A DNA stretch of 64,000 bases from an uncultured Caldilineaceae bacterium (GTDB taxonomy: Bacteria; Chloroflexota; Anaerolineae; Caldilineales; Caldilineaceae), in contig OY282381.1 of the NCBI GenBank assembly GCA_958295915.1, forward strand, positions 3,680,722 through 3,744,721, in the 5' to 3' direction. Numbering within the stretch: position 1 is the stretch's first letter; each line of letters starts with the position of its first letter. Below are positions 50,082-62,934 of the stretch, piece by piece. The notes below the pieces were generated by a model. The model saw only the letters and a list, made by a program, of their open reading frames with translations. It searched no databases and was not told the origin of the DNA. Position numbers and translations under genes: made by a program.

Positions 50082-52967
50082 ATGGCACGCGCTGTCACCC
50101 GCAAGAAACTGATCGAAGTCGCCCTGCCCCTGGATGCCATCAACGCCGCCTCCGCGCGCGAGAAATCGATCCGTCACGGCCACCCCAGCACATTGCACCT
50201 GTGGTGGGCGCGTCGTCCCCTGGCCGCGGCGCGCGCCGTCATCTTCGCCAGCTTAGTGGACGACCCCTCTGCATGGCCGCAGCTGTTCCCCAGCGAGGAG
50301 GCCCAGTCCGAGGAGCGCCAGCGGCTCTTCGATATCATCAAGCAGCTGGTCAGGTGGGAGAACACCACCGACGAGAGAGTCCTGGAAGAGGCTAGGGATG
50401 AAATCCGCAAGAGCTGGCGTGGCGCCTGCGCCGACAACCGCGCCCACCCGCGCGCGGCCGAGCTGTTCGACCCCGACAGACTGCCAGCCTTCCACGACCC
50501 CTTCGCCGGCGGCGGCTCCATCCCCCTGGAAGCGCAGCGGCTAGGGCTGGAGAGCTTCGCCAGCGACCTCAACCCGGTGGCAGTGCTGATCAACAAAGCC
50601 ATGATCGAAATACCGCCCAAGTTCAGTGGTCGGTCTCCAGTGGCTGGTGACCAGGCAGGCCAGCAAGCGCTGACCACCGGTCACTGGCCACAGGCCACGG
50701 GCCTGGCCGAGGATGTGCGCTACTACGGCCAGTGGATGCGCGCCGCGGCCGAGAAACGCATCGGCCACCTCTACCCCAAAGTGGAAGTCACGCCGGAGAT
50801 GGCGCGGGCGCGGCCTGACCTTGAGCGGTACGTGGGCCGCAAGCTGACGGTCATCGCCTGGCTGTGGGCGCGCACGGTCAAGAGTCCCAATCCGGCCTTC
50901 GCCGCTATAGAGGCGCCGCTGGCGTCCACCTTCATTCTGTCGAAGAAAAAGGGCAGGGAAGCCTACGTCCAGCCGGTTATCGAGGACGACGGCTACCACT
51001 TCATCGTTAAAGCGGGGCCACCACCGGATAGGGCCAGGAAGGGCGCCAAGCTGGCGCGCGGGGCACACTTCCAGTGTGTGATGTCCGGGGCGCCGATGAC
51101 TCCTGATTACATCAAGGCCGAAGGGATAGCTGGACGCATGGGCGCGCGCCTCATGGCAATCGTCGCCGAGGGGGACCGGGAACGGGTCTATCTGCCGCCG
51201 ACACCGGAGCATGAAAGCGTTGCTCAGAACGCAGAACCAGAATGGATGCCCGATGTGGAAATCCCCCCGGATCGGCGCGCAATGTTTACGCCACTATATG
51301 GGCTTACACATTTCAAGCACCTGTTCACCGATCGTCAGTTGGTGGCGCTGACCACCTTCTGCGACCTGGTGGGTGAGGCGCGCGAACGCATCCGACAGGA
51401 CGCCGTGGCCGCCGGCCTGCCGGATGACGGCATCCCCCTGCGCGACGGCGGAACCGGGGCCACTGCCTACGTCGAGGCGGTGGCTGTGTACTTGGCGTTT
51501 GGCGCCAGTAAGACAGCGAACCGTGCAAGCGCCCTTTGCACCTTCAAAATCTCTGTCGAGTGTCCCGGGGACACTTTTGGACGTCAAGCGATTCCCATGT
51601 CGTGGGACTATGCTGAAGCCAATACAGTCAGCGGCCCCAGTGGATCTTTCGAAAGTATGATCAAGAACACGGTGGCTGGGCTTCTTTCTAACGGAGCAAT
51701 ACCAGACGCTATCGGCTATGGGCATCTGGTTGACGCTGCTACACAGTCCATTACCCTAAGCAAGATCGCCTCTACTGATCCGCCCTACTACGATAACATC
51801 GGTTACGCTGACCTGTCCGATTTTTTCTACGTCTGGCTGCGCCGTTCTTTGAGATCAACTTTTCCCGACATCTTCGCTACGCTCGCCGTCCCCAAGGCTG
51901 AGGAGTTGGTCGCTACGCCCTACCGCCATGATGGGAGCAAAGAGAAGGCGGAATCATTTTTCATGGCTGGCATGACATTGGCGATGCAACGTCTTGCGGA
52001 GCAGTCGCACCCGGCCTTTCCCACTACCATCTACTACGCCTTCAAGCAGTCGGAGAAGAAAGGCGATTCCGGTACTTTGAGCACGGGCTGGGAGACGTTT
52101 CTCGAGGCAGTAATGCGAGCCGGGTTTGCCATCAGCGGCACATGGCCTGTGCGCACGGAACGCGAGAACCGAAAGCGGAATCAGGGTACCAACGCCCTCG
52201 CCTCCAGCATCGTCCTCGTCTGCCGACCGCGCCCCGCCGACGCGCCTCTGGCCACGCGCAGCGAGTTCGTCGACGCGCTCAAAATGGAACTGCCGCCGGC
52301 TGTGGCCAAGATGCAGAGCGGCAACATCGCGCCCGTGGACCTGGCCCAGGCCGCCATCGGCCCCGGCATGGCCATCTTCAGCCGCTACGCGCGCGTGTTG
52401 CACATCAGCGGAGAGACCGTATCGGTGCGCGAGGCCCTGGCCCTCATCAACCAGACCCTGGACGAGACGCTGAGCGCGCAGGAGGGCGACTTCGATACCG
52501 ACACGCGCTGGGCTTTGGCCTGGTTCGAGCAGGTAGGCTTTGCCGAAGGCGAGTTCGGGGTGGCCGAGACCCTCTCCAAGGCCAAGAACACCAGCGTCGA
52601 CGGCCTGGTCGCGGCCGGCATCCTGCAGGCCGGGGCCGGCAAAGTGCGCCTGTTGCGTCCCCTGGAACTGCCAGACGACTGGGAGCCGCAGACAGACACG
52701 CGGCTCACTGTCTGGGAGGTAGTGCACCACCTTGTGCGCGTCCACTATCAGCAGGGCGAGGAGGCGGCCGGCGTCCTGTTGGCGCGCTTGAGAGGCAACG
52801 CGAGGGACGCGCGCGAGCTGGCCTATCGTCTCTACCACATCTGCGAGCGCAAGAACCGCGCCCAGGAAGCGCACGACTACAACGCCCTGGTCCGCAGCTG
52901 GCCGGAGATCGCGCGCCTGGCCGTGCGGGCGACATGGGCCGCGCAAGCGCCGCTCCTGAACCCATAA
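50082..52967 (+). CDS. DUF1156 domain adenine-specific-type DNA methylase, copy 2
   Basis: 961 aa paralogue of 46922-49789, sharing nearly all of residues 1-470 and the last ~270 residues, at DNA level too. The SAM motif [19 protein letters not shown] and catalytic [19 protein letters not shown] (Asp566) are intact. The segment just before the catalytic motif (about residues 474-560) is quite different from copy 1, and there is a second patch around [18 protein letters not shown] / [13 protein letters not shown]. This looks like a duplicated enzyme with an exchanged central module. ATG 50082 has only a distant GGAG (16 bases). The in-frame interspersed repeat (50624-50702) is present as in copy 1, so it predates the duplication or spread by conversion. 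Confidence 0.92.
50624..50702. repeat. Interspersed repeat inside DUF1156 copy 2, in frame
   Basis: Almost identical to 47458-47536 and, reverse-complemented, related to 54498-54596. It encodes [20 protein letters not shown] between the IPPKF and [10 protein letters not shown] segments. Confidence 0.8.
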
Positions 52968-53186
52968 ACACCATAATTCCTATACGTATCGCCCATGCCT
53001 TTATCCTGTCCATCATCCGAATCACAGTTCAGACATCGACCATCTCCGAAAAGAGAGAGTGGAAATGAGGAGACCCCATTCCTGATTCCCACAAGCTGGG
53101 AAGTTGCGCACCGTCCACTGGGCAGCTACACTGGACTCGGCAAGCTGGTTACGCAATACAACTCATTCATCCGCAGGAGGAAAGAA

Positions 53187-54497
53187 GTGAACGCAAAAAG
53201 ACTGTTCGTTTGGAGCATAATGATCAGTGTCGTGTTGGGCCTGGCCGCCTGTGCCCCGGCGCAGGAATCTGCCCCCGCGGCCGCGGGGGCATCGACAGAT
53301 GAAGTTGTCGAGCTGAACTGGGTCGAATGGTGGGACGGCGAGTATTCTGAAGAATCGCTGGATGGCCTGATCGCCCTATTTGAGGAGAAAAACCCCGGCA
53401 TCACAGTCAAACGCACCCCTCTGGGCTGGGGATCTATGTATGACTCCATTGTGGCCAGCGCCCAGGCCGAAACAGCCGAATACGATGTCCTGGGAATGGA
53501 GCCGTGCTGCTGGATGAGCGCGCTGGTCAAACTGGATGCCCTCGAGCCCCTGGGATCTTATATCGACGGAACGCCCGGCTTCCGCGAGCGCCTGGTGAGC
53601 GACCTGGCAATCACAGAATGGGCCGGCGATGAGTACAGCATCTGCTGGTACATGATGCCCTACACCTATGCCTACGACGTGGCTGTCTTTGAAGAAGCAG
53701 GGCTCGAGCCCCCCACAAATTGGGCTGAAATGGTCGAAGTGACCCAGACGCTCAACGAATCGGATGTGGTGGAATTCGGGCTTGGCGCCGGCTTGAACGC
53801 CAGCTTCTACACCATGTACTACCATTGGGGCGCCCGTCTGGCCCAACTTGGCGGGCAACTCTACGACGACAACAACTGCGCCATCTTCAACTCCCCTGAA
53901 GGTGTGCAGTCTATGTTGGATTGGAAAGAGCTCTACACCAACAATATGCTGGTAGACGGCGCCATCGGCATGGGCCAGAATGACCTGCATGATCTGATGA
54001 CCGCCCAGCGCATCGCCGCCTATTTCACCGGGCCCTGGGTGCAGTCCGCAGTGCAACTCAACCGCGAAGACGCCCGCATCGCCTTTGCGCCGGCCTGGAC
54101 AGACGCTGAAACCGGCTCCGGCGGCTACCAGTGGGCATGCAGTGGACTGGCCATCTCCTCCAACTCGCCGCACAAAGAGGAGGCCTGGAAGTTCATCGAC
54201 TTTCTGCTGAGCGATGAAGGCTCGATCTATATGTCTGAGCAGACCAGCGTCACCTATGCCACAAAAGCCAATTTCGCGCGCTTCGCAGAAATGGACGATC
54301 CGATCCTCAAGGAAGTTCCGCCTATGCTGAACCAGGACCCGGCGCATAACCTCTTCTTCGCGCCGACAGCCGACTTTAGTGTGCATGATGAATGGGTAGC
54401 GGAATTTCAGGAAGTGTTGGACGGAAATCGCGACCCGCAGGAAGCCTTGAACGCCATGGTAGAACTCTGGAACCAGGACCTGCCCCAATGCCAGTAG
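53187..54497 (+). CDS. Sugar ABC transporter substrate-binding lipoprotein (SBP family 1)
   Basis: 436 aa. GTG 53187 (MNAKRLFVWSIMISVVLGLA) has AGGAGGAAAGAA upstream; the longer frame from 52995 is translated interspersed repeat. A Sec signal ends in lipobox LGLAACAP (about residues 17-24), followed by an Ala-rich linker. The mature start VELNWVEWWDGEYSEES and the ALFEEKNPGITVKRTPLGWG region are typical of family-1 sugar-binding proteins. It is first gene of an importer operon with 54602-56417. Unlike three other binding proteins here it uses Sec rather than Tat export. The substrate is unknown; peptidase-like and aminotransferase genes downstream suggest a nitrogen-containing compound. Confidence 0.93.
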   Translation: MNAKRLFVWSIMISVVLGLAACAPAQESAPAAAGASTDEVVELNWVEWWDGEYSEESLDGLIALFEEKNPGITVKRTPLGWGSMYDSIVASAQAETAEYDVLGMEPCCWMSALVKLDALEPLGSYIDGTPGFRERLVSDLAITEWAGDEYSICWYMMPYTYAYDVAVFEEAGLEPPTNWAEMVEVTQTLNESDVVEFGLGAGLNASFYTMYYHWGARLAQLGGQLYDDNNCAIFNSPEGVQSMLDWKELYTNNMLVDGAIGMGQNDLHDLMTAQRIAAYFTGPWVQSAVQLNREDARIAFAPAWTDAETGSGGYQWACSGLAISSNSPHKEEAWKFIDFLLSDEGSIYMSEQTSVTYATKANFARFAEMDDPILKEVPPMLNQDPAHNLFFAPTADFSVHDEWVAEFQEVLDGNRDPQEALNAMVELWNQDLPQCQ

Positions 54498-54601: not shown

Positions 54602-55552
54602 ATGACGGAGCAATACCGTACAGACATTCAGGATACGCCACGGCCAAGGAGACATCTCTCTCCGAAAGGAAAGTGGCCGCGCCAAGCCACCGGCTACCTG
54701 ATGATTGCCCCAGCCATCATCTTTCTCCTCTTAGTGATCATCTACCCCCTGTTCGAAGTATTTCGCTTAAGTTTCTTCGAATTCACCGGCCTGCGCGACC
54801 AGACGGCCACCTTCGTAGGCCTGAAGAATTTCGTCAGTTTGATGGACGATCGCATCTATTGGATCAGCATGAAGAATACGCTCATCTTTGTGATCGCAAC
54901 CGTGATTCTTCACGCCCTGATCGGCCTCGTATTTGCCCTCGCCTTGCACCAACGCTGGCCCAGCAACCGGCTGCGCGATCTGGTGCGTGGGCTGCTGATC
55001 TTGCCCTGGCTGTTCTCAATGGCCGCCGCCGGCCTGGTGTGGGCCTTGCTCCTCAATGCCCTGGGGCCTATAAACTACCTGCTGGTAGCCAGCGGCATTC
55101 TGGAGCGGGCCATCGATTTCCTGGGAGACCGCGATACCGCCCTGTGGGCCCTGATCGCGGTCAACGTCTGGAAATCCTATCCCTTCTATATGATCATGCT
55201 TCTGGGGGGCTTGCAGACGATCCCCCCCGATCTCTACGCGGCAGCCAAAGTGGATGGCGCCGACCGCTGGCAACGATTCGCCTTCATCACCTTGCCGCTG
55301 ATGCGCTCCATCCTGGTGGCGACCACGGCCATTGACTTTATCACCACGTTCGGCGTTTTCGATCTGGTCAGAACCCTGACCAACGGAGGCCCGGCGCGCT
55401 CCACCATCACCCTAGGCTATTACACCTGGCTGGTTGGCTTTCGCGATGTCGACTTCGGCTACGGAGCCGCCATTAGCGTCTCGATGTTGATCATCATGAG
55501 TGTGGCCATGTGGTTCTATCTGCGCCTGGGTAGGGAGATGATCTATGGTTAG
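54602..55552 (+). CDS. Sugar ABC transporter permease, MalF type
   Basis: 316 aa inner-membrane permease. The first membrane segment is GYLMIAPAIIFLLLVIIYPL; the LSFFEFTGLRDQTATFVGLK loop follows. ATPase-contact loop DLYAAAKVDGADRWQRFAFI (core AAAKVDGAD). It ends VSMLIIMSVAMWFYLRLG. ATG 54602 directly follows an interspersed repeat that fills the preceding gap. Its stop overlaps the next permease start by 8 bp. Confidence 0.94.
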   Translation: MTEQYRTDIQDTPRPRRHLSPKGKWPRQATGYLMIAPAIIFLLLVIIYPLFEVFRLSFFEFTGLRDQTATFVGLKNFVSLMDDRIYWISMKNTLIFVIATVILHALIGLVFALALHQRWPSNRLRDLVRGLLILPWLFSMAAAGLVWALLLNALGPINYLLVASGILERAIDFLGDRDTALWALIAVNVWKSYPFYMIMLLGGLQTIPPDLYAAAKVDGADRWQRFAFITLPLMRSILVATTAIDFITTFGVFDLVRTLTNGGPARSTITLGYYTWLVGFRDVDFGYGAAISVSMLIIMSVAMWFYLRLGREMIYG

Positions 55553-56417
55553 CGCGTTGGGCCACTTGGGCCGCAGGCTCAGAATGCCGCGCTATCTGAC
55601 AATATATGGCGTCATAACAGCCATATTGTTAGCCATCGGTCTGATCGTCGTGTTATTCCCGATCGCCTGGATGGTCTTTGCCTCGATGCGTCCCCTGTCA
55701 GAAACCTTTGGCAGCCCGCCAGCCTGGTTTCCCAGAGAAGTCACCTCGACAGCATACACCAAGATATTCTCCGATCCCAGGCAACTTCGCTACCAATTCA
55801 ATACCTATATAATCTCCCTGTCGACAGCCATCCTGAGTGTTGGGCTGGGCGCGCTGGCCGCATATGGCTTTTCTCGCTTCAAAATCTGGGGCGCTGAGTT
55901 CATCCTGCTCAGCATCATGGCGCTGCAGATGTTGCCCGGCGTCTCCATCATCATCCCATTTTACAATCTGGCCCGCCGGGCGGGCGTCTGGAATACCTAC
56001 CTGGCCATGATCATGGCCGATACGGTCTTCGCCTTGGCGATTTCGATCTGGCTGCTGAAGAGCTATATCGACAGCATCCCCACCGACCTGGAAGAAGCCG
56101 CTATGGTAGATGGTTGTAACCGCTTTCAGTCCCTATACAGGATCGTGTTGCCCCTGCTGGCGCCGGGCCTGGTGGGAACCGCCACCTTCGCCTTTCTCTA
56201 TGCCTGGAATGACTTTGTCTTTGCCACCATCTTACGAGATGGGCATGATCTGATGCCCATGACCGTGGCCATTGGCAACTTCTTTACCCAGGCAAATCGG
56301 GATTGGAATGCCATCATGGCCCTGAACACAATGGCCACCTTGCCATTAATCGCCATATTTGTCTTCCTGCAGCGCTGGGTCATCCAGGGCATGACCGCGG
56401 GCGCGCTGAAAGAATAG
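55545..56417 (+). CDS. Sugar ABC transporter permease, MalG type
   Basis: 290 aa inner-membrane permease starting at ATG 55545 within the end of the preceding gene. First segment LAIGLIVVLFPIAWMVFAS; loop RPLSETFGSPPAWFP; ATPase-contact loop DLEEAAMVDGCNRFQSLYRI (core EAAMVDGCN); ends FLQRWVIQGMTAGALKE. It completes the importer begun at 53187; again no ATPase gene is adjacent. A decayed copy of the C-terminus of a similar gene follows at 56536-56751. Confidence 0.94.
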   Translation: MVSALGHLGRRLRMPRYLTIYGVITAILLAIGLIVVLFPIAWMVFASMRPLSETFGSPPAWFPREVTSTAYTKIFSDPRQLRYQFNTYIISLSTAILSVGLGALAAYGFSRFKIWGAEFILLSIMALQMLPGVSIIIPFYNLARRAGVWNTYLAMIMADTVFALAISIWLLKSYIDSIPTDLEEAAMVDGCNRFQSLYRIVLPLLAPGLVGTATFAFLYAWNDFVFATILRDGHDLMPMTVAIGNFFTQANRDWNAIMALNTMATLPLIAIFVFLQRWVIQGMTAGALKE

Positions 56418-56535: not shown

Positions 56536-56751
56536 ATGCCAGATATAGAGAACCACTCTTCGACCATCCTGACCGATACGCCGGCCACGCAACCCCTCAC
56601 CATCGCCTTGGCAAAATTCTTCGGCTATGTGGCCAGAGATTGGAATTCAATCATGGCTTTGTCGACGGTCGCCAGCCTGCCCCTGGTCCTCATTTTCATC
56701 CTCTTCCAGCGCTATGTGGTGCAGGGGATGACCAGTGGCGCAGTCAAATAG
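56536..56751 (+). pseudogene. MalG-type permease C-terminal fragment
   Basis: The frame reads SSTILTDTPATQPLTIALAK, then FFGYVARDWNSIMALSTVAS and FQRYVVQGMTSGAVK with a stop. This aligns with the last ~65 residues of the adjacent permease (FATILRDGHDLMPMTVAIGN, RDWNAIMALNTMATLP, LQRWVIQGMTAGALKE) but with many substitutions. So it derives from a different, related permease gene whose front part has been replaced by interspersed repeat sequence (56455-56535). Confidence 0.8.
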
Positions 56752-56833
56752 CGCCGCGCAAGAGGGTGCATCCCAGAGAAGCGAGCCAGAAACTCGCCCC
56801 CATCCTGAGACGCGCCCTGCGAAAGGAGAAAGC

Positions 56834-58024
56834 ATGGCCCCGGAGCCTGTCGATGTCAATCTGATTCACCGCCTCAAACGCGCCCTGAAAGGCTGGCTCC
56901 CTGATTTCCAGACGGATTTGGCTTGGCTGGTGGCGCACGATCGGGGTTCGGAATACAAAGCCGGCGTTGACGCCGCCGGCACATGGATGCTTGCCAAGCT
57001 GCGGGATTTAGGCTGCGACACAGCGGTCTACCCGAGCGACGAATACGGCTCGGCAATAGCCGGCACATTGAAAGGCCAAGGGCAGGGGCGGGCCTTATTG
57101 GTCGCGCACCTGGACACCGTCTGGCCACAAGGCGCCGCGGCCGCATGGCCGTTGCGGATTGAAGGTACGCGGGCGATGGGCCCGGGGGTGGTTGACAATG
57201 CCAGTGGTAGCCTGACCGGCTACTACGTCCTCAAGGCCTTGCGCCAGGTAGGGTACGACGATTTCGATGCGATCACCTTGCTATGTAACGCTGATGAAGA
57301 GTTGGGCTCCCCTTTCTCGAAGGAGATCATTCAATCCCTGGCCCAGAGCAGAGATGCAGCCTTTATCCTCGAATCCCCGTCCAATCCAGACGAGATCATC
57401 AGCCAACGCGCCGGGCTGATGTATTACGATCTGCGCGTGACCGGCAAGAATGCCCATGCCGGCGTTGAGCCGGAAAAAGGCCATAACGCCATCCAGGAAC
57501 TGTGTTGCAAGCTGAACGAGTGTCAACAGCTCGCCAGGGAGGGCGATGTGCTGACCGTCAGTGTGTCTACCATCAAGGGAGGACAACGGCCCAACATCGT
57601 GCCCGACTACGCGCGCGCCCAGATCGACGTCCGGGTTGAGACATTGGCCGAAGCTGAACGGGTAGACGCCCATTTCCGTGAGATCGCAGACCGGGTCTGG
57701 GTGCCCGGCACGTCCGCCACACTCGATGGAGGCATCTCGCATCCGCCCATGCAGCGCGGCCCGCAGTCGCCGTGGTTGGTGGAATCGGCCCAGGCCATCG
57801 GCCAGGAGCTTGGTATCAGCCTGAAAGACACCTTCTGCGGCGGTACCTCCGATGGGTGCTACACCGCCGTCGTCGGGACGCCCACGCTCTGTGGGCTGGC
57901 CCCCTTTGGCGCCCTCTACCACACCCGTGGCGAATATCTTGACCTGAGCACCGTCGTGCCACGGTCTACGCTGGTCGCGGGTCTGGTGGTTGCCTGCGCA
58001 AAGGAGAAATCACATGGCGTCTGA
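56834..58024 (+). CDS. M20 family metallopeptidase (CPG2/ArgE-like)
   Basis: 396 aa di-zinc amidohydrolase. Metal ligands appear in VAHLDTVWP (His92), GPGVVDNASGS (Asp121), CNADEELGSP (Glu155/156, one the general base) and LYHTRGEYLD (C-terminal His). The dimerisation domain runs through GKNAHAGVEPEKGHNAIQEL. This is close to the glutamate carboxypeptidase branch (GPGxxDMKGG; here GPGVVDNASG). ATG 56834 has AAAGGAGAAAGC upstream. No signal peptide, so it is cytoplasmic. It overlaps by 11 bp the M24-like gene and probably removes an amino acid or acyl group from an imported compound. Confidence 0.92.
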   Translation: MAPEPVDVNLIHRLKRALKGWLPDFQTDLAWLVAHDRGSEYKAGVDAAGTWMLAKLRDLGCDTAVYPSDEYGSAIAGTLKGQGQGRALLVAHLDTVWPQGAAAAWPLRIEGTRAMGPGVVDNASGSLTGYYVLKALRQVGYDDFDAITLLCNADEELGSPFSKEIIQSLAQSRDAAFILESPSNPDEIISQRAGLMYYDLRVTGKNAHAGVEPEKGHNAIQELCCKLNECQQLAREGDVLTVSVSTIKGGQRPNIVPDYARAQIDVRVETLAEAERVDAHFREIADRVWVPGTSATLDGGISHPPMQRGPQSPWLVESAQAIGQELGISLKDTFCGGTSDGCYTAVVGTPTLCGLAPFGALYHTRGEYLDLSTVVPRSTLVAGLVVACAKEKSHGV

Positions 58025-59420
58025 TGGCGTAAAACTGGTCTCAACTCCCTTACCCGATTTCGGTCTTCCACCCAGCCAGCCGCCCATCAGCCAGACCGAG
58101 TACGAGAACAGGATCGAGCTGGCCCGCGCCCGCGCCTCGCGCGCAGAGCTCGACTTCTTGTTGGTCTACGCTGATCGAGAGCATTTTGCCAACCTGGCCT
58201 ATCTCACAGACCACGACCCCCGTTTCGAAGAAGCCTTGTTGGTGATACCTGGCGCGGGGGGCAAGCCAATCCTCATCCTGGGCAATGAAGGGCTGACCTA
58301 CGCGGAGTTGATCCCGGTCGATGTGGAACGCCGGCTGTACCAGGGGTTCAGCTTGCCAGGGCAGAAGCGCAGTGATAGCCCTCGGCTGGAACCCGTCCTG
58401 CGGGATTGTGGTATCGGGCGAGGCCATCGCCTGGGCCTGGTGGGATGGAAATACGCCACCCGCGCCGAAAGTGACGATCCCGACCATTGGTTGGACGTGC
58501 CAGCCTTCATCGTGGACACAGCGCGCAGGCTCACCGCTGACGCGCAGCGGGTGACCAATGCCACCGCCATTTTCATGAACCCAGTGGATGGTTTGCGCAG
58601 CGACAACAGCGCCGACCAACTGGCAGCCTTCGAGTTTGCGGCAACGCATTGCTCGCAGGCTGTGCGCAATCTGATCGCGCGCCTGCAGCCGGGGATGTCC
58701 GAACTGGAAGCCGTGCGCGCTATGCAGTTGAACGGTCTGCCGCTCTCCGCGCACCTCATGTTTTCCTCCGGCCCGCGTGCCCGCTTGGGCCTGCCCAGCC
58801 CATCCGGCCGCCTGATCCGGCAGGGAGACCCCTTCTTCGTAGGGCTGGGCCTGCGCGGCGGCCTGACAGCGCGCGGCGGATTCGTAGCCGCCAATCCGTC
58901 GCAGTTGCCGCTGGAAAGCGCCGCCTACGTCGAACGTCTGGTGAAGCCCTATTTTGCGGCCGCCGTCGCCTGGTACGAGCATGTGGGCATCGGGGTGAAA
59001 GGCGCTGAAATCCAGTCCGTAGTCGAAGATGCCCTTGCAGGACACGACATTGGGATTGCGCTCAACCCAGGACACCTGATCCACCTGGATGAATGGGTGC
59101 ACTCGCCCATATACGCCGGCTCCGAGCTGCCATTGCGCTCCGGCATGCTGATGCAGTGCGACATCATCCCCGTGGTTGAACCGCAATACCACACGACAAA
59201 TCTGGAGGACACGATCGCCCTCGCGGATCGACCGCTCCGCCAGCAATTGGCCGCCTCCTATCCGGATGTCTGGCAGCGAGTGCAGGCCAGGCGCGCGTTC
59301 ATGCAAAACATCCTGGGCATTCGAATCAAGCCCGAACTATTGCCTTTTTCCAATATGGCCGCCATGTTGCAGCCCTTTGCGCTCGACCCCAATCAGGTGA
59401 TGGTAGCCATTAACCACTGA
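58014..59420 (+). CDS. M24 (creatinase/aminopeptidase P)-fold protein with missing metal ligands
   Basis: 468 aa. The creatinase-type N-terminal domain (ARASRAELDFLLVYADREHF, NLAYLTDHDPRF) is followed by a pita-bread domain with GMSELEAVRAMQLNGLP. The strand that normally carries the two metal-binding Asp reads GDPFFVGLGLRGGLTARGGF, with no Asp where DxG...D is expected. The His loop is NPGHLIHLDEWVHSPI and the late part GMLMQCDIIPVVEP / NLEDTIALAD keeps one Glu-Asp. It may be a non-peptidase or inactive homologue. ATG 58014 has AAGGAGAAATCAC upstream inside the M20 gene. Contrast the intact M24 protein at 61690. Confidence 0.82.
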   Translation: MASDGVKLVSTPLPDFGLPPSQPPISQTEYENRIELARARASRAELDFLLVYADREHFANLAYLTDHDPRFEEALLVIPGAGGKPILILGNEGLTYAELIPVDVERRLYQGFSLPGQKRSDSPRLEPVLRDCGIGRGHRLGLVGWKYATRAESDDPDHWLDVPAFIVDTARRLTADAQRVTNATAIFMNPVDGLRSDNSADQLAAFEFAATHCSQAVRNLIARLQPGMSELEAVRAMQLNGLPLSAHLMFSSGPRARLGLPSPSGRLIRQGDPFFVGLGLRGGLTARGGFVAANPSQLPLESAAYVERLVKPYFAAAVAWYEHVGIGVKGAEIQSVVEDALAGHDIGIALNPGHLIHLDEWVHSPIYAGSELPLRSGMLMQCDIIPVVEPQYHTTNLEDTIALADRPLRQQLAASYPDVWQRVQARRAFMQNILGIRIKPELLPFSNMAAMLQPFALDPNQVMVAINH

Positions 59421-59454: not shown

Positions 59455-60747
59455 ATGAAAGGCAAATTAGCCATCAATGGCGGGCCGCGTACGGTACCGG
59501 AAGGGCTGAAGAAGCAATGGCCCAATATCACCCAGGCAGACAAAGATGCCGTCATGGCCGTTTTGGAGCGCAATGTTCTCACCGGACCAGACCACGGCCC
59601 CGAGACCGCCGCGCTGCAGAAAGCATGGGCTGAATTCACAGGCAGCAAACATGCTCTGGCTTTCAACAGCGGTACAGCCGCGCTGCACACCGCCCTGTTC
59701 GCCGCCGGCGTGCAACCCGGGGATGAAGTGATCACCACAGCCTTCTCCTTCTCGGGCACCTGCCTGCCCATTTTGCAGCAGCACGCAATCCCCATCTTCG
59801 TCGACATCGACCCGCGCACCTACAATATCGACGCCAGCCAGATCGAGGCCAGAATCACGGATCGAACCAAGGTGTTGTTGCCGGTCCACATGCACGGGTT
59901 GCCGGCAGACATGGACGACATCCTGGCCCTGGCCGAGAAGTATGACCTCGTCGTCGTAGAGGATGCATGTCAGGCCCATGGCAGCGCCTACAAAGGACGG
60001 ATGGCGGGGACGATCGGCGACCTGGCCGGCTTCAGCCTCAATGCGACCAAGAACTTCTCCGCTGGCGAGGGCGGATTTCTCCTGACCGATAACGATGCAT
60101 ACGCCGAACGGGCCAGGATGCTGCGCACCTTTGGCGAGAAGCTCACTGAGCAGAAGGAGCGATTCCGCTCCTATGCCTGCTACACCATCGGCTGGAACTA
60201 CCGCCTCCAGGAACTCCCGGCAGCCTTTGCCCGCAGCCAGTTGAAGCGGCTACCGCAGTACAACGCCATCGCGCAGCGCAACGGCGAGTTCCTCTCCCAG
60301 GAGCTGAGCAAAATCGCGGGGCTGATCCCGCCCTATGTGCCAGCCGACCGCACCACCATATATCACAAGTACCGCCTCCGCTTCGACCCCGATGCGCTGG
60401 AGTTGAAGATGCCGGCGGTCGAGTTTCGAGACAAGCTATTGGACGCGCTGGAAGCCGAGGGCGTGACCGTGAGCCTCTGGCATTATACGCCCATGCCCGC
60501 CTTCCCAATCTTCCAGAACCTCGACATCGGCTATGGCAACGGCTACCCCTGGCGATCTCCCTTCTACGACAAAGAGATCACCTACAGACCAGAGGAATAT
60601 CCGCAGGCGCTGCGCATGTTCGCAACCTCTCTCGTCGTCCATAATGAGCAATATTCGATCACAATCCAGGACATGGCGTTGATGGAATGCTACGTGGAAG
60701 CCTTCCATAAGGTTTTCGACAACCTTGATGAGCTGTTGACCACGTGA
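59455..60747 (+). CDS. DegT/DnrJ/EryC1/StrS family aminotransferase
   Basis: 430 aa PLP-dependent sugar aminotransferase family. The start KLAINGGPRTVPEGLKKQW is standard. NSGTAALHTAL (about residues 71-81) contacts PLP phosphate; VVVEDACQAHGSAYKG has Asp170; the Schiff-base Lys199 is in FSLNATKNFSAGEGGF. TIGWNYRLQELPAAF and HKYRLRF follow as usual. GGAGGTGACGCCACA precedes the ATG. Family members transfer an amino group to or from a keto sugar, or act as dehydratases when Lys is replaced by His (not so here). Neighbouring SDR and importer genes suggest amino-sugar-like metabolism. Confidence 0.93.
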   Translation: MKGKLAINGGPRTVPEGLKKQWPNITQADKDAVMAVLERNVLTGPDHGPETAALQKAWAEFTGSKHALAFNSGTAALHTALFAAGVQPGDEVITTAFSFSGTCLPILQQHAIPIFVDIDPRTYNIDASQIEARITDRTKVLLPVHMHGLPADMDDILALAEKYDLVVVEDACQAHGSAYKGRMAGTIGDLAGFSLNATKNFSAGEGGFLLTDNDAYAERARMLRTFGEKLTEQKERFRSYACYTIGWNYRLQELPAAFARSQLKRLPQYNAIAQRNGEFLSQELSKIAGLIPPYVPADRTTIYHKYRLRFDPDALELKMPAVEFRDKLLDALEAEGVTVSLWHYTPMPAFPIFQNLDIGYGNGYPWRSPFYDKEITYRPEEYPQALRMFATSLVVHNEQYSITIQDMALMECYVEAFHKVFDNLDELLTT

Positions 60748-60792: not shown

Positions 60793-61626
60793 ATGACGCA
60801 TACGCGGAAGATGGAAGGGAAGCGCGCGCTTGTGACCGGTTCAGGCACCGGTATCGGGCGGGGCGTTGCGCTGGAATTCGCCAGGGAAGGCGCTGCCGTT
60901 GTGCTGCATTACGCCCACAGCGAGGCCGGCGCGCGCACAGCGGTCGATGAAATCAGACGCGCGGGCGGCAAAGCCGAGGTGTTCCAGGCAGACCTGGCCG
61001 ATATCGACCAAGTCCGGGAGCTGGCCGCGCAGTCCATAGATTTCCTGGGCGGGATCGATGTGCTGGTGAACAACGCCGGCATCACCATGAACAAACCCTT
61101 CGCGCAAGTGACGCCCGAACAGTTCGACACGCTCTTCAATGTGAATATTCGGGGCATGTTCTTTCTGACCCAAGCCGCCGTGCCCGGCATGATCGAGCAG
61201 GAGCAGGGCGCAGTCATTAACCTGACCTCGGTGCATGCCTTTGCCGGCATGACGGAGCACACCGTCTACGCCGGCACCAAAGCCGCCATCGTCGGCTTCA
61301 CGCGTGTCCTGGCCCTGGAGTTAGCGCCCAAAGGGGTACGCGTGAACGCGATCGCGCCGGGCTGGATTTTGGTGGAAAATCATCTCAAAGTGCTCGGCGA
61401 GGATTTCGATGGCCAAAAGGCCGCTGGCGCGATCCCAGCAGGCATCTTGGGCGCGCCCAATGATATCGGCCAACTCGCCATCTTTCTGGCGTCCCCAGAG
61501 AGCCGCTATATCATCGGACAAACACTCGTGATAGATGGCGGCCAGCTGGCGATTATGCCTCTGTCCGGTGATTTCCGCCAGCCGCGCCAGGAACAATGGG
61601 GGCAAGGATACGTGCCTGGTCTGTAG
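60793..61626 (+). CDS. Short-chain dehydrogenase/reductase (classical SDR)
   Basis: 277 aa. The cofactor motif is VTGSGTGIGRGVALEFA (residues about 14-30), VLVNNAGITMNKPF is the NNAG strand, the active-site Ser region is VINLTSVHAFAGMTEHTVYA, and YAGTK supplies Tyr and Lys. The C-terminus YIIGQTLVIDGGQLAIMP is standard. AAGGAGAGTAGAAG precedes the ATG. The segment VRVNAIAPGWILVENHL and glucose-dehydrogenase-like LASPESRYI are typical of sugar dehydrogenases. It sits between the aminotransferase and M24 genes in the same operon. Confidence 0.92.
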   Translation: MTHTRKMEGKRALVTGSGTGIGRGVALEFAREGAAVVLHYAHSEAGARTAVDEIRRAGGKAEVFQADLADIDQVRELAAQSIDFLGGIDVLVNNAGITMNKPFAQVTPEQFDTLFNVNIRGMFFLTQAAVPGMIEQEQGAVINLTSVHAFAGMTEHTVYAGTKAAIVGFTRVLALELAPKGVRVNAIAPGWILVENHLKVLGEDFDGQKAAGAIPAGILGAPNDIGQLAIFLASPESRYIIGQTLVIDGGQLAIMPLSGDFRQPRQEQWGQGYVPGL

Positions 61627-61689: not shown

Positions 61690-62934
61690 ATGCTTTTCAA
61701 CAAATCGCGGGCAATCGACTACATGCGGCAGTACGAGTTGGATGTCCTGGTAGCGACGTCACCGCCTGATATCACCTATTTCTCGGATTACTTCTGCTGG
61801 CTCGATCCGATATTCAAAGAGTATATGATGGCGCCGGGCGCATCCAGCAACCTGATGCAAGCCTATGCGGTCTTTCCCCTCGAGGGTGAACCGGCGCTCG
61901 TTGTCAATCCACCGTTCGCAGTCAACGCGACCGACCTGTGGGTGCGCGACCTGCATATCTTCGGCAGCCCCGGCCTGGACGACTCGCTGTCCCATACCGA
62001 ACCGCCGCACGCGCTCCGGCGCTTCCATGACCTGCTGCACGCCCCCCAACGCAACGCCACCCCGACCGATGCGCTGCTGAGTATCCTGAATCAGCGCGGC
62101 CTGACCGACGCGCGCATCGGCTTGGCGATGGAAAACCTGCCGGCCGAAACAAACGATGCGATCGCGCGGGCGCTGCCCCGGGCCGCGCTCAAAAATTGCG
62201 CCAACCTCATCCGCCTGATTCGGATGGTCAAGAGCGCAGAAGAACTCCGCCGCTTAACCCGTTCGGCCGAGATCAACGAACAGGTTGCCATGGAATGCCT
62301 CGCCCTGGCCCAGCCAGGCCGGCCGCTCTCCGACCTGATCCGACACTATCGGGCGCGGACCGGCGAATTGGGCGCAGATTTCGATCATTTTGCCTTTGGT
62401 GTGCGCGGCCTGGGCATGGCTACCGAACCGAACTACCGACTGGCGGATGATGACGTGCTCTACGTGGACTTTGGCTGTATCTATCAGCGCTATTTCTCCG
62501 ACAGTGGTACAACATTGGCGATGCAGGAACCGTCACCGACCCTGCGCGCGCGCCATACAGCGCTGCGCGCCTGCATGGCGGCGGGTGTGCAGGCGCTCCG
62601 CCCCGGCGCAAAAGCCTCGGCCGTACAGACCGCCATGTGGCAAACGCTGAACGACCACGGCATCACAGCCTCTTTTCCACACGGCCATGGTCTGGGCCTG
62701 GAAGTCCGCGACTACCCGATTCTTGTCGCAGACAACGGGCTGCGCATCAGCGACGATTGTGTGGATACGCCCTCGGACCTGCCCCTGGAGGCCGACATGG
62801 TTCTCAACCTTGAAGCCGCAATTTTTATGCCCGGCGCCGGCTCGCTGCACATCGAGCGATCCTTTGTGGTGACGCCAGACGGAAACCGGCCGCTTGTGCC
62901 ACAAGATCGAAGCCAGCCAGTGCAACCCCAGTGA
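61690..62934 (+). CDS. M24 family metallopeptidase (Xaa-Pro aminopeptidase-like)
   Basis: 414 aa. The N-terminal creatinase domain (MLFNKSRAIDYMRQYELDVL, ITYFSDYFCW) is followed by a complete set of metal ligands: DVLYVDFGCIYQRYFSDSGT (two Asp, about residues 262 and 272), FPHGHGLGLEVRDYP (His), NLEAAIF and SLHIERSFVVT (Glu, Glu). These predict a di-metal Xaa-Pro peptidase or creatinase-like amidinohydrolase. ATG 61690 has GAGGGACAAA upstream. It differs from the product of 58014-59420, which lacks several of these ligands. End of the operon. Confidence 0.92.
   Translation: MLFNKSRAIDYMRQYELDVLVATSPPDITYFSDYFCWLDPIFKEYMMAPGASSNLMQAYAVFPLEGEPALVVNPPFAVNATDLWVRDLHIFGSPGLDDSLSHTEPPHALRRFHDLLHAPQRNATPTDALLSILNQRGLTDARIGLAMENLPAETNDAIARALPRAALKNCANLIRLIRMVKSAEELRRLTRSAEINEQVAMECLALAQPGRPLSDLIRHYRARTGELGADFDHFAFGVRGLGMATEPNYRLADDDVLYVDFGCIYQRYFSDSGTTLAMQEPSPTLRARHTALRACMAAGVQALRPGAKASAVQTAMWQTLNDHGITASFPHGHGLGLEVRDYPILVADNGLRISDDCVDTPSDLPLEADMVLNLEAAIFMPGAGSLHIERSFVVTPDGNRPLVPQDRSQPVQPQ

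Follow-up and report, generated by a model that had tools for sequence, protein, structure and literature searches.

A widespread pita-bread protein family without the metal-binding aspartates of M24 peptidases, encoded near a sugar importer in a Caldilineaceae bacterium

What role can be assigned to a protein that has the fold of M24 peptidases but lacks the two aspartates that bind their metal pair? This question is raised by a gene at positions 58014..59420 of the window, i.e., the whole analyzed stretch of 64,000 nucleotides from an uncultured Caldilineaceae bacterium; this gene and the genes of its run described below lie on the + strand. The gene, referred to here, like its family, as M24x, encodes a two-domain pita-bread protein of 468 amino acids. 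Its ATG start follows an AGGAG and lies within the end of the upstream M20 gene, the two genes sharing 11 bases. As no signal peptide is evident in the sequence, the protein is probably cytosolic. The host genome, a single contig of 5.06 Mb, contains five M24 genes besides M24x. The Pfam M24 model matches residues 208-401 of the window protein with 24.8 bits, just above the cut-off of 23. The Creatinase_N domain exceeds its threshold in 35 of 48 family members, the window protein itself being below it. A search of PDB sequences with the single M24x sequence gave no matches up to an E value of 1.

An earlier note, made from the sequence alone, had proposed that the protein has an M24 fold and lacks the canonical aspartate ligands, and structural modeling and alignment bear out both parts of this proposal. 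The AlphaFold model, for which 48 sequences (the window protein and fetched loci) served as input, has a mean pLDDT of 93.1 and a pTM of 0.92. In Foldseek, it matches prolidases, creatinases, and the ectoine hydrolase EutD. VIA-align superimposes it on prolidase 1wy2 (Z 30.6, 2.6 Å over 336 residues), creatinase 1chm (Z 29.5, 2.3 Å over 356 residues), and EutD 6twk (Z 28.6, 2.6 Å over 357 residues), which are close to tied when Z differences below 1 are counted as ties; the value for the DMSP lyase DddP is Z 24.0. With hhalign and small template profiles, matches were confined to the N-terminal part: EutD was matched with an E value of 3e-10, and creatinase and canonical M24 proteins were not matched significantly.

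In M24 enzymes, both aspartate ligands reside on one hairpin, which corresponds to codons 271-292 (58824..58889) of M24x. In the AlphaFold model, its strands comprise residues 273-280 and 283-290, and the sequence quoted in the earlier note, FFVGLGLRGGLTARGGF, covers residues 274-290. Conservation was assessed in an alignment of 99 sequences (the window protein, 80 members from a pattern scan, 13 plasmid members, and five from the class), which are 31-77% identical to the window protein. Residues 273-292 are free of Asp and Glu in all 99. The possibility that a better alignment would reveal the ligands shifted but present is thus ruled out for the hairpin, as is local decay or sequencing error, since the pattern is family-wide. 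The first Asp position falls on residue 277 (the G-D motif plus five), which is Ala in 81 sequences, Thr in 7, Asn in 4, Gly and Cys in 3 each, and Ser in 1. The second falls on L284, A286, or R287, varying by alignment, and Asp or Glu occurs in none of these columns: residue 284 is Leu in 92 and Asn in 7 of the 99 sequences, residue 286 is Ala, Ser, or Cys, and residue 287 (58872..58874) is Arg throughout. The invariant Arg287 occupies the second Asp position in a MAFFT alignment with an Anaerolineae M24 group (L021-L023, see below), and it aligns with the Arg of the M24 D-x-T-R-T motif in the HMMER alignment to 1wy2 and in MAFFT alignments with creatinase, EutD, and canonical M24 proteins. 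The latter alignments imply that the M24x hairpin is four residues shorter; the strands of the AlphaFold model would suit residue 286 as the second Asp position.

Two of the five metal ligands are gone, and the positions of the remaining three still hold polar residues, with one Glu-to-Asp change. In particular, HMMER alignment to 1wy2 assigns His354 (59073..59075), Asp383 (59160..59162), and Glu398 (59205..59207) to the metal-His, first Glu-ligand, and second Glu-ligand positions, respectively, and each of the three is invariant (99/99). The other two active-site histidines of M24 are also lost. Where the P-H motif has its His (His232 in creatinase), M24x has L260, which is Leu in 86 of the 99 sequences, and the later active-site His is replaced by residue 359 (Asp in 91, Glu in 8), the first residue of a D-E-W motif (codons 359-361, 59088..59096).

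The N-terminal domain contains two strongly conserved motifs: D-R-E-H (codons 54-57, 58173..58184), in which D, E, and H are present in 99/99 and R in 93/99 sequences (Arg55 being Lys or Leu in the other six), and P-R-F-E-E (codons 69-73, 58218..58232), which is invariant (99/99) and aligns near the place of creatinase Arg64. Both motifs were part of the scan patterns by which 80 of the 99 sequences were found, so their conservation among these 80 is partly built in; the 18 sequences obtained by other routes also keep both motifs, apart from changes at Arg55. Further invariant residues are Y52, E92, E207, W320, E360, W361, Q381, P386, R422, and R426, and K146 is found in 98/99 sequences. In this alignment, M24x is thus marked by invariant residues of its own, a large share of which lie in the N-terminal domain. 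Pita-bread proteins are known to form head-to-tail dimers, and creatinase Arg64 reaches creatine from the N-terminal domain of the partner chain. The paper on DddP (PMC4108388) describes the N-terminal domain of one chain as fitting the pita bread of its partner and shaping the active site. The charged invariant N-terminal domain of M24x suggests a partner-chain arrangement as in DddP and creatinase.

How, then, does M24x relate to known members of the fold? Prolidase and aminopeptidase P (M24B) have the fold, the domain order, and the positions of the metal His and the second Glu in common with M24x, which differs from them by the absence of both Asp and two active-site His and by Asp in place of the first Glu. 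Two enzymes of the fold, creatinase and ectoine hydrolase (EutD/DoeA), are metal-free. Creatinase (1chm, 7yto), whose catalytic residues are His232, Glu262, and Glu358, has the same two-domain fold with the lowest rmsd of the rows listed and, like M24x, is devoid of both Asp, which are replaced by N249 and A260. At approx. 15% identity, however, the counterpart of its His232 is L260, its Glu262 has no acidic counterpart among residues 273-292, and Glu358 and His376 correspond to Asp383 and Glu398. EutD/DoeA (6twk, 6yo9) shares the fold, the N-terminal profile match, and the lack of the second Asp, and it has a D-W pair where M24x has E360-W361. In EutD, a Glu at the first Asp position acts covalently. 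This Glu, together with Tyr at the metal-His position, is found in all ten aligned EutD-type sequences (six of them above the family cut-off), whereas M24x column 277 is without Glu. Moreover, the best-scoring ectoine-hydrolase model, NF038259, gives the window protein 16 bits (cut-off 575), and TIGR02993 is absent from the curated-model matches listed for it. By its residues, M24x belongs to neither the creatinase nor the ectoine hydrolase family and represents an additional case within this fold. DddP is another M24-fold protein with non-peptidase chemistry; unlike M24x, it has the full set of dinuclear ligands, with an additional, third Asp (PMC4108388).

M24x is found far beyond the Caldilineaceae. 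A pattern scan covering one genome per species in 84,980 species confirmed at least 556 relatives among the 596 matches listed, of which 80 were kept. According to record titles, they come from Chloroflexota, Mesorhizobium and other Rhizobiales, Rhodospirillales/Acetobacteraceae, Saprospiraceae and other Bacteroidota, an Acidobacteria MAG, and a Bathyarchaeota MAG. M24x also occurs in 64 plasmid records (Enterococcus 21, Agrobacterium 20, Rahnella 11, Rhizobium 5, Pantoea 2, Shinella 2, and one each in Halomontanus, Microvirga, and Niallia). Records that name the product call it M24 family metallopeptidase, Xaa-Pro aminopeptidase, or aminopeptidase P family protein and, in one case, hypothetical protein. 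Among 150 related genomes, 18 including its own contain M24x (14 full-length, 4 weak), and a survey of the phylum detected it at E 1e-40 in 19 of 400 genomes, again including its own; thus, M24x is a patchy accessory gene. E. coli genomes searched in a distant mode with the DNA of the Pantoea At-9b member gave no match. Judging from this distribution, M24x is not a decayed copy, because it has hundreds of relatives in Chloroflexota, Alphaproteobacteria, Bacteroidota, Bacillota, Enterobacterales, and Archaea. The database family name (M24 metallopeptidase or Xaa-Pro aminopeptidase) is probably wrong for M24x. The literature searched, available in part, offered no description of a bacterial M24 family lacking metal ligands in this way.

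In the window, M24x is part of a gene run that begins with a CUT1-type sugar importer, composed of a substrate-binding protein (52995..54497; the start may lie further in) and two permeases (54602..56417, i.e., 54602-55552 and 55545-56417). These are followed by a glutamate-carboxypeptidase-like M20 metallohydrolase (56735..58024), M24x, a DegT/DnrJ aminotransferase (59455..60747), a short-chain dehydrogenase/reductase (SDR; 60793..61626), and a canonical M24 protein (61690..62934). In the latter, the ligands D, D, H, E, and E are all aligned, as expected from the claim of the earlier note that the operon also encodes a catalytically intact M24 protein. Just upstream of the importer, an ORF of 961 amino acids (50082-52967) has, by eye, the look of a DNA methyltransferase. 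In two sister genomes (L025 and L026), the M24x operon contains an amidohydrolase gene and two CUT1 importers; it is followed, at the place of the canonical M24 gene of the window, by what appears by eye to be a dipeptide-type ABC system.

Similar neighborhoods recur in other members of the family. Besides the window, loci of Agrobacterium, Pantoea vagans, and Microvirga and a Chloroflexota locus (L027) combine M24x with a CUT1 importer and M20 and/or M81. In particular, the Agrobacterium pAt locus comprises a CUT1 importer, ROK, M24x, UgpC, a TIM barrel, and M20; that of P. vagans CUT1, ROK, M81, M24x, and UgpC; that of Microvirga M81, CUT1, ROK, M24x, and M20; that of Rhizobium CUT1, ROK, and M24x; and L027 M81, CUT1, LacI, and M24x. 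In Shinella, M24x is accompanied by an ABC importer and an arginine-deiminase-family gene. As a side observation, M81 (MlrC/microcystinase-like) genes and CUT1 sugar importers recur beside M24x in L108, L107, and L027, a combination that spans Alphaproteobacteria, Pantoea, and Chloroflexota. In sponge/marine-type Chloroflexota loci, the gene order is FAH hydrolase, M24x, MR/MLE sugar-acid dehydratase, and sugar importer, and locus L041 encodes a YjhG/YagF D-xylonate dehydratase (1079.9 bits; cut-off 808). The YjhG/YagF, SDR, Gfo/Idh, FAH, and MR/MLE genes at L041:1655-9386 and similar loci resemble an oxidative pentose pathway. Three loci, from Rhodospirillales (L042), Acidobacteria (L072), and Chloroflexota (L076), have a xylose isomerase above the cut-off next to M24x or in its vicinity; in L072, it lies 12 bases downstream of M24x.

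Other lineages present a plainer picture. In Enterococcus and Rahnella, M24x adjoins a regulator, and a sugar operon is not evident. The regulators next to M24x are Crp-like in Rahnella and E. faecium, DeoR in E. faecalis, LacI in Pantoea At-9b, and ROK in Rhizobium. Nearly all Mesorhizobium loci, most Rhodospirillales, and Bacteroidota have none of the sugar genes tested; of all features tested, Mesorhizobium and many others have either none or an SDR alone. Since most loci are without these genes, gene context does not fix the pathway.

The same genomes also supplied 32 canonical M24 loci as controls for the neighborhoods of 14 M24x loci. A substrate-binding protein is near M24x in 5/14 loci versus 0/32 controls (Fisher 0.0015), M20 in 3/14 versus 0/32 (0.024), and a CUT1 permease in 5/14 versus 3/32 (0.044); these P values are uncorrected for the 17 features tested, the search seeds came from M24x loci, the window among them, which biases towards this result, and the 14 loci include three congeneric genomes (window, L025, and L026) and are therefore non-independent. 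The other 14 features were not significant at 0.05 in the same 14 and 32 loci. ORF calling kept one ORF per place, by which M24x itself was lost in 15 of 80 loci. The Pfam tally of neighbors covers 119 of 131 near ORFs, 12 having been dropped by eye as long, short, cut, or antisense-looking, and it leaves out 35 loci judged by eye to be near-duplicates.

We propose, with a rough probability of 0.4, that M24x is a pita-bread family without a dinuclear center that likely hydrolyzes a small imported compound and is located in sugar operons of many genomes. M24x would have given up the dinuclear metal center and, by analogy with creatinase and EutD, would hydrolyze a C-N or C-O bond of its substrate without a metal pair. 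The pocket would be formed by His354, Asp383, Glu398, Glu360, and Arg287 of the catalytic domain. Three charged motifs of the N-terminal domain (D54-R-E-H57, P69-R-F-E-E73, and N91-E92), probably contributed by the partner subunit, would close it. In many genomes, M24x would thereby serve operons that import and degrade sugars or sugar conjugates. Among the three roles offered by the earlier note (inactive partner, binding protein, or enzyme with new chemistry), the last is favored, given that the active-site region has invariant His, Asp, Glu, and Arg residues across several phyla; the binding protein retains some probability, and the inactive partner finds little support. Indeed, it is highly improbable that M24x is an inactive subunit pairing with the downstream intact M24 protein. 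The intact gene lies 2.3 kb downstream of M24x in the window, and of 14 M24x genomes, three have a canonical M24 gene no more than 8 kb away and two more have one at 12-13 kb, which exceeds the chance level of approx. 2% per genome (our own estimate). However, this linkage is above chance in the phylum and not general: 11 of the 14 genomes have no canonical M24 within 8 kb, in other lineages, a second M24 within 10 kb is listed for none of 11 annotated plasmid loci (in an incomplete gene table), and M24x of Bacillota, Archaea, and Enterobacterales stands without an intact M24.

It is also rather unlikely that M24x is a mononuclear metalloenzyme whose His354, Asp383, and Glu398 hold a single Fe, Mn, or Zn. 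The triad stands at ligand positions and is invariant in 99/99 sequences, yet creatinase retains His324 and Glu358 at such positions and binds no metal. A single site would be consistent with E. coli PepQ, in which the His-chelated site has more metal density than the other (PMC4213023), but M24x lacks the second Asp, a residue that contacts both metals in prolidase (PMC2814137). A non-catalytic ligand-binding or sensor protein, comparable to the M24-fold histone chaperone SPT16 and to EBP1/PA2G4 (PA2G4 is described as an M24 pseudoenzyme in PMC3888471), is not very probable either. Such a role would agree with the absence of both Asp and of two catalytic histidines and with the frequent adjacency of a transcription regulator, and invariance would also suit a ligand-binding protein; nevertheless, ionizable residues are kept at the His and Glu ligand positions with no drift, and M24x sits between enzymes inside catabolic gene runs. 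Finally, M24x might act in a sugar pathway beyond C-N hydrolysis, e.g., as an aldonolactonase opening a lactone between dehydrogenase and dehydratase, which we regard as improbable. At L041, M24x is surrounded by YjhG/YagF, a Gfo/Idh dehydrogenase, SDRs, FAH, an MR/MLE dehydratase, and a sugar importer, and no lactonase family was detected among the neighbors scanned (six of the 13 called). Against such a role, loci with xylose isomerase need no lactonase, and the M20/M81 partners in other lineages indicate amide bonds.

If hydrolysis without a metal pair is correct, M24x would be a third, broad, and separately built case of metal loss and would show that the scaffold readily adopts other chemistry. 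Gene context suggests pentose-derived lactones and amide-linked sugar conjugates as candidate substrates. It is possible, although doubtful, that M24x constitutes a new pita-bread branch of bacteria and archaea that acts on sugar-derived lactones or amides without a dinuclear center, using an active site built largely from the N-terminal domain; to our knowledge, this substrate class is not known for the fold. In practical terms, M24x is present in hundreds of genomes in which its annotated names are very probably wrong.

The nearest relatives found outside the M24x family are the Anaerolineae M24 proteins L021-L023, with 26-30% identity. As in M24x, the metal His and the Asp-for-Glu change are present; the two Asp positions of L021-L023 are occupied by Asn and Ser. 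These proteins differ from M24x by the absence of the D-R-E-H and P-R-F-E-E motifs, a Cys before the His, and shorter open frames (390-423 amino acids), and they may represent a sister branch. All three, from genomes G108, G060, and G123, respectively, have GPCHGIGL at the metal His and are probably not dinuclear either.
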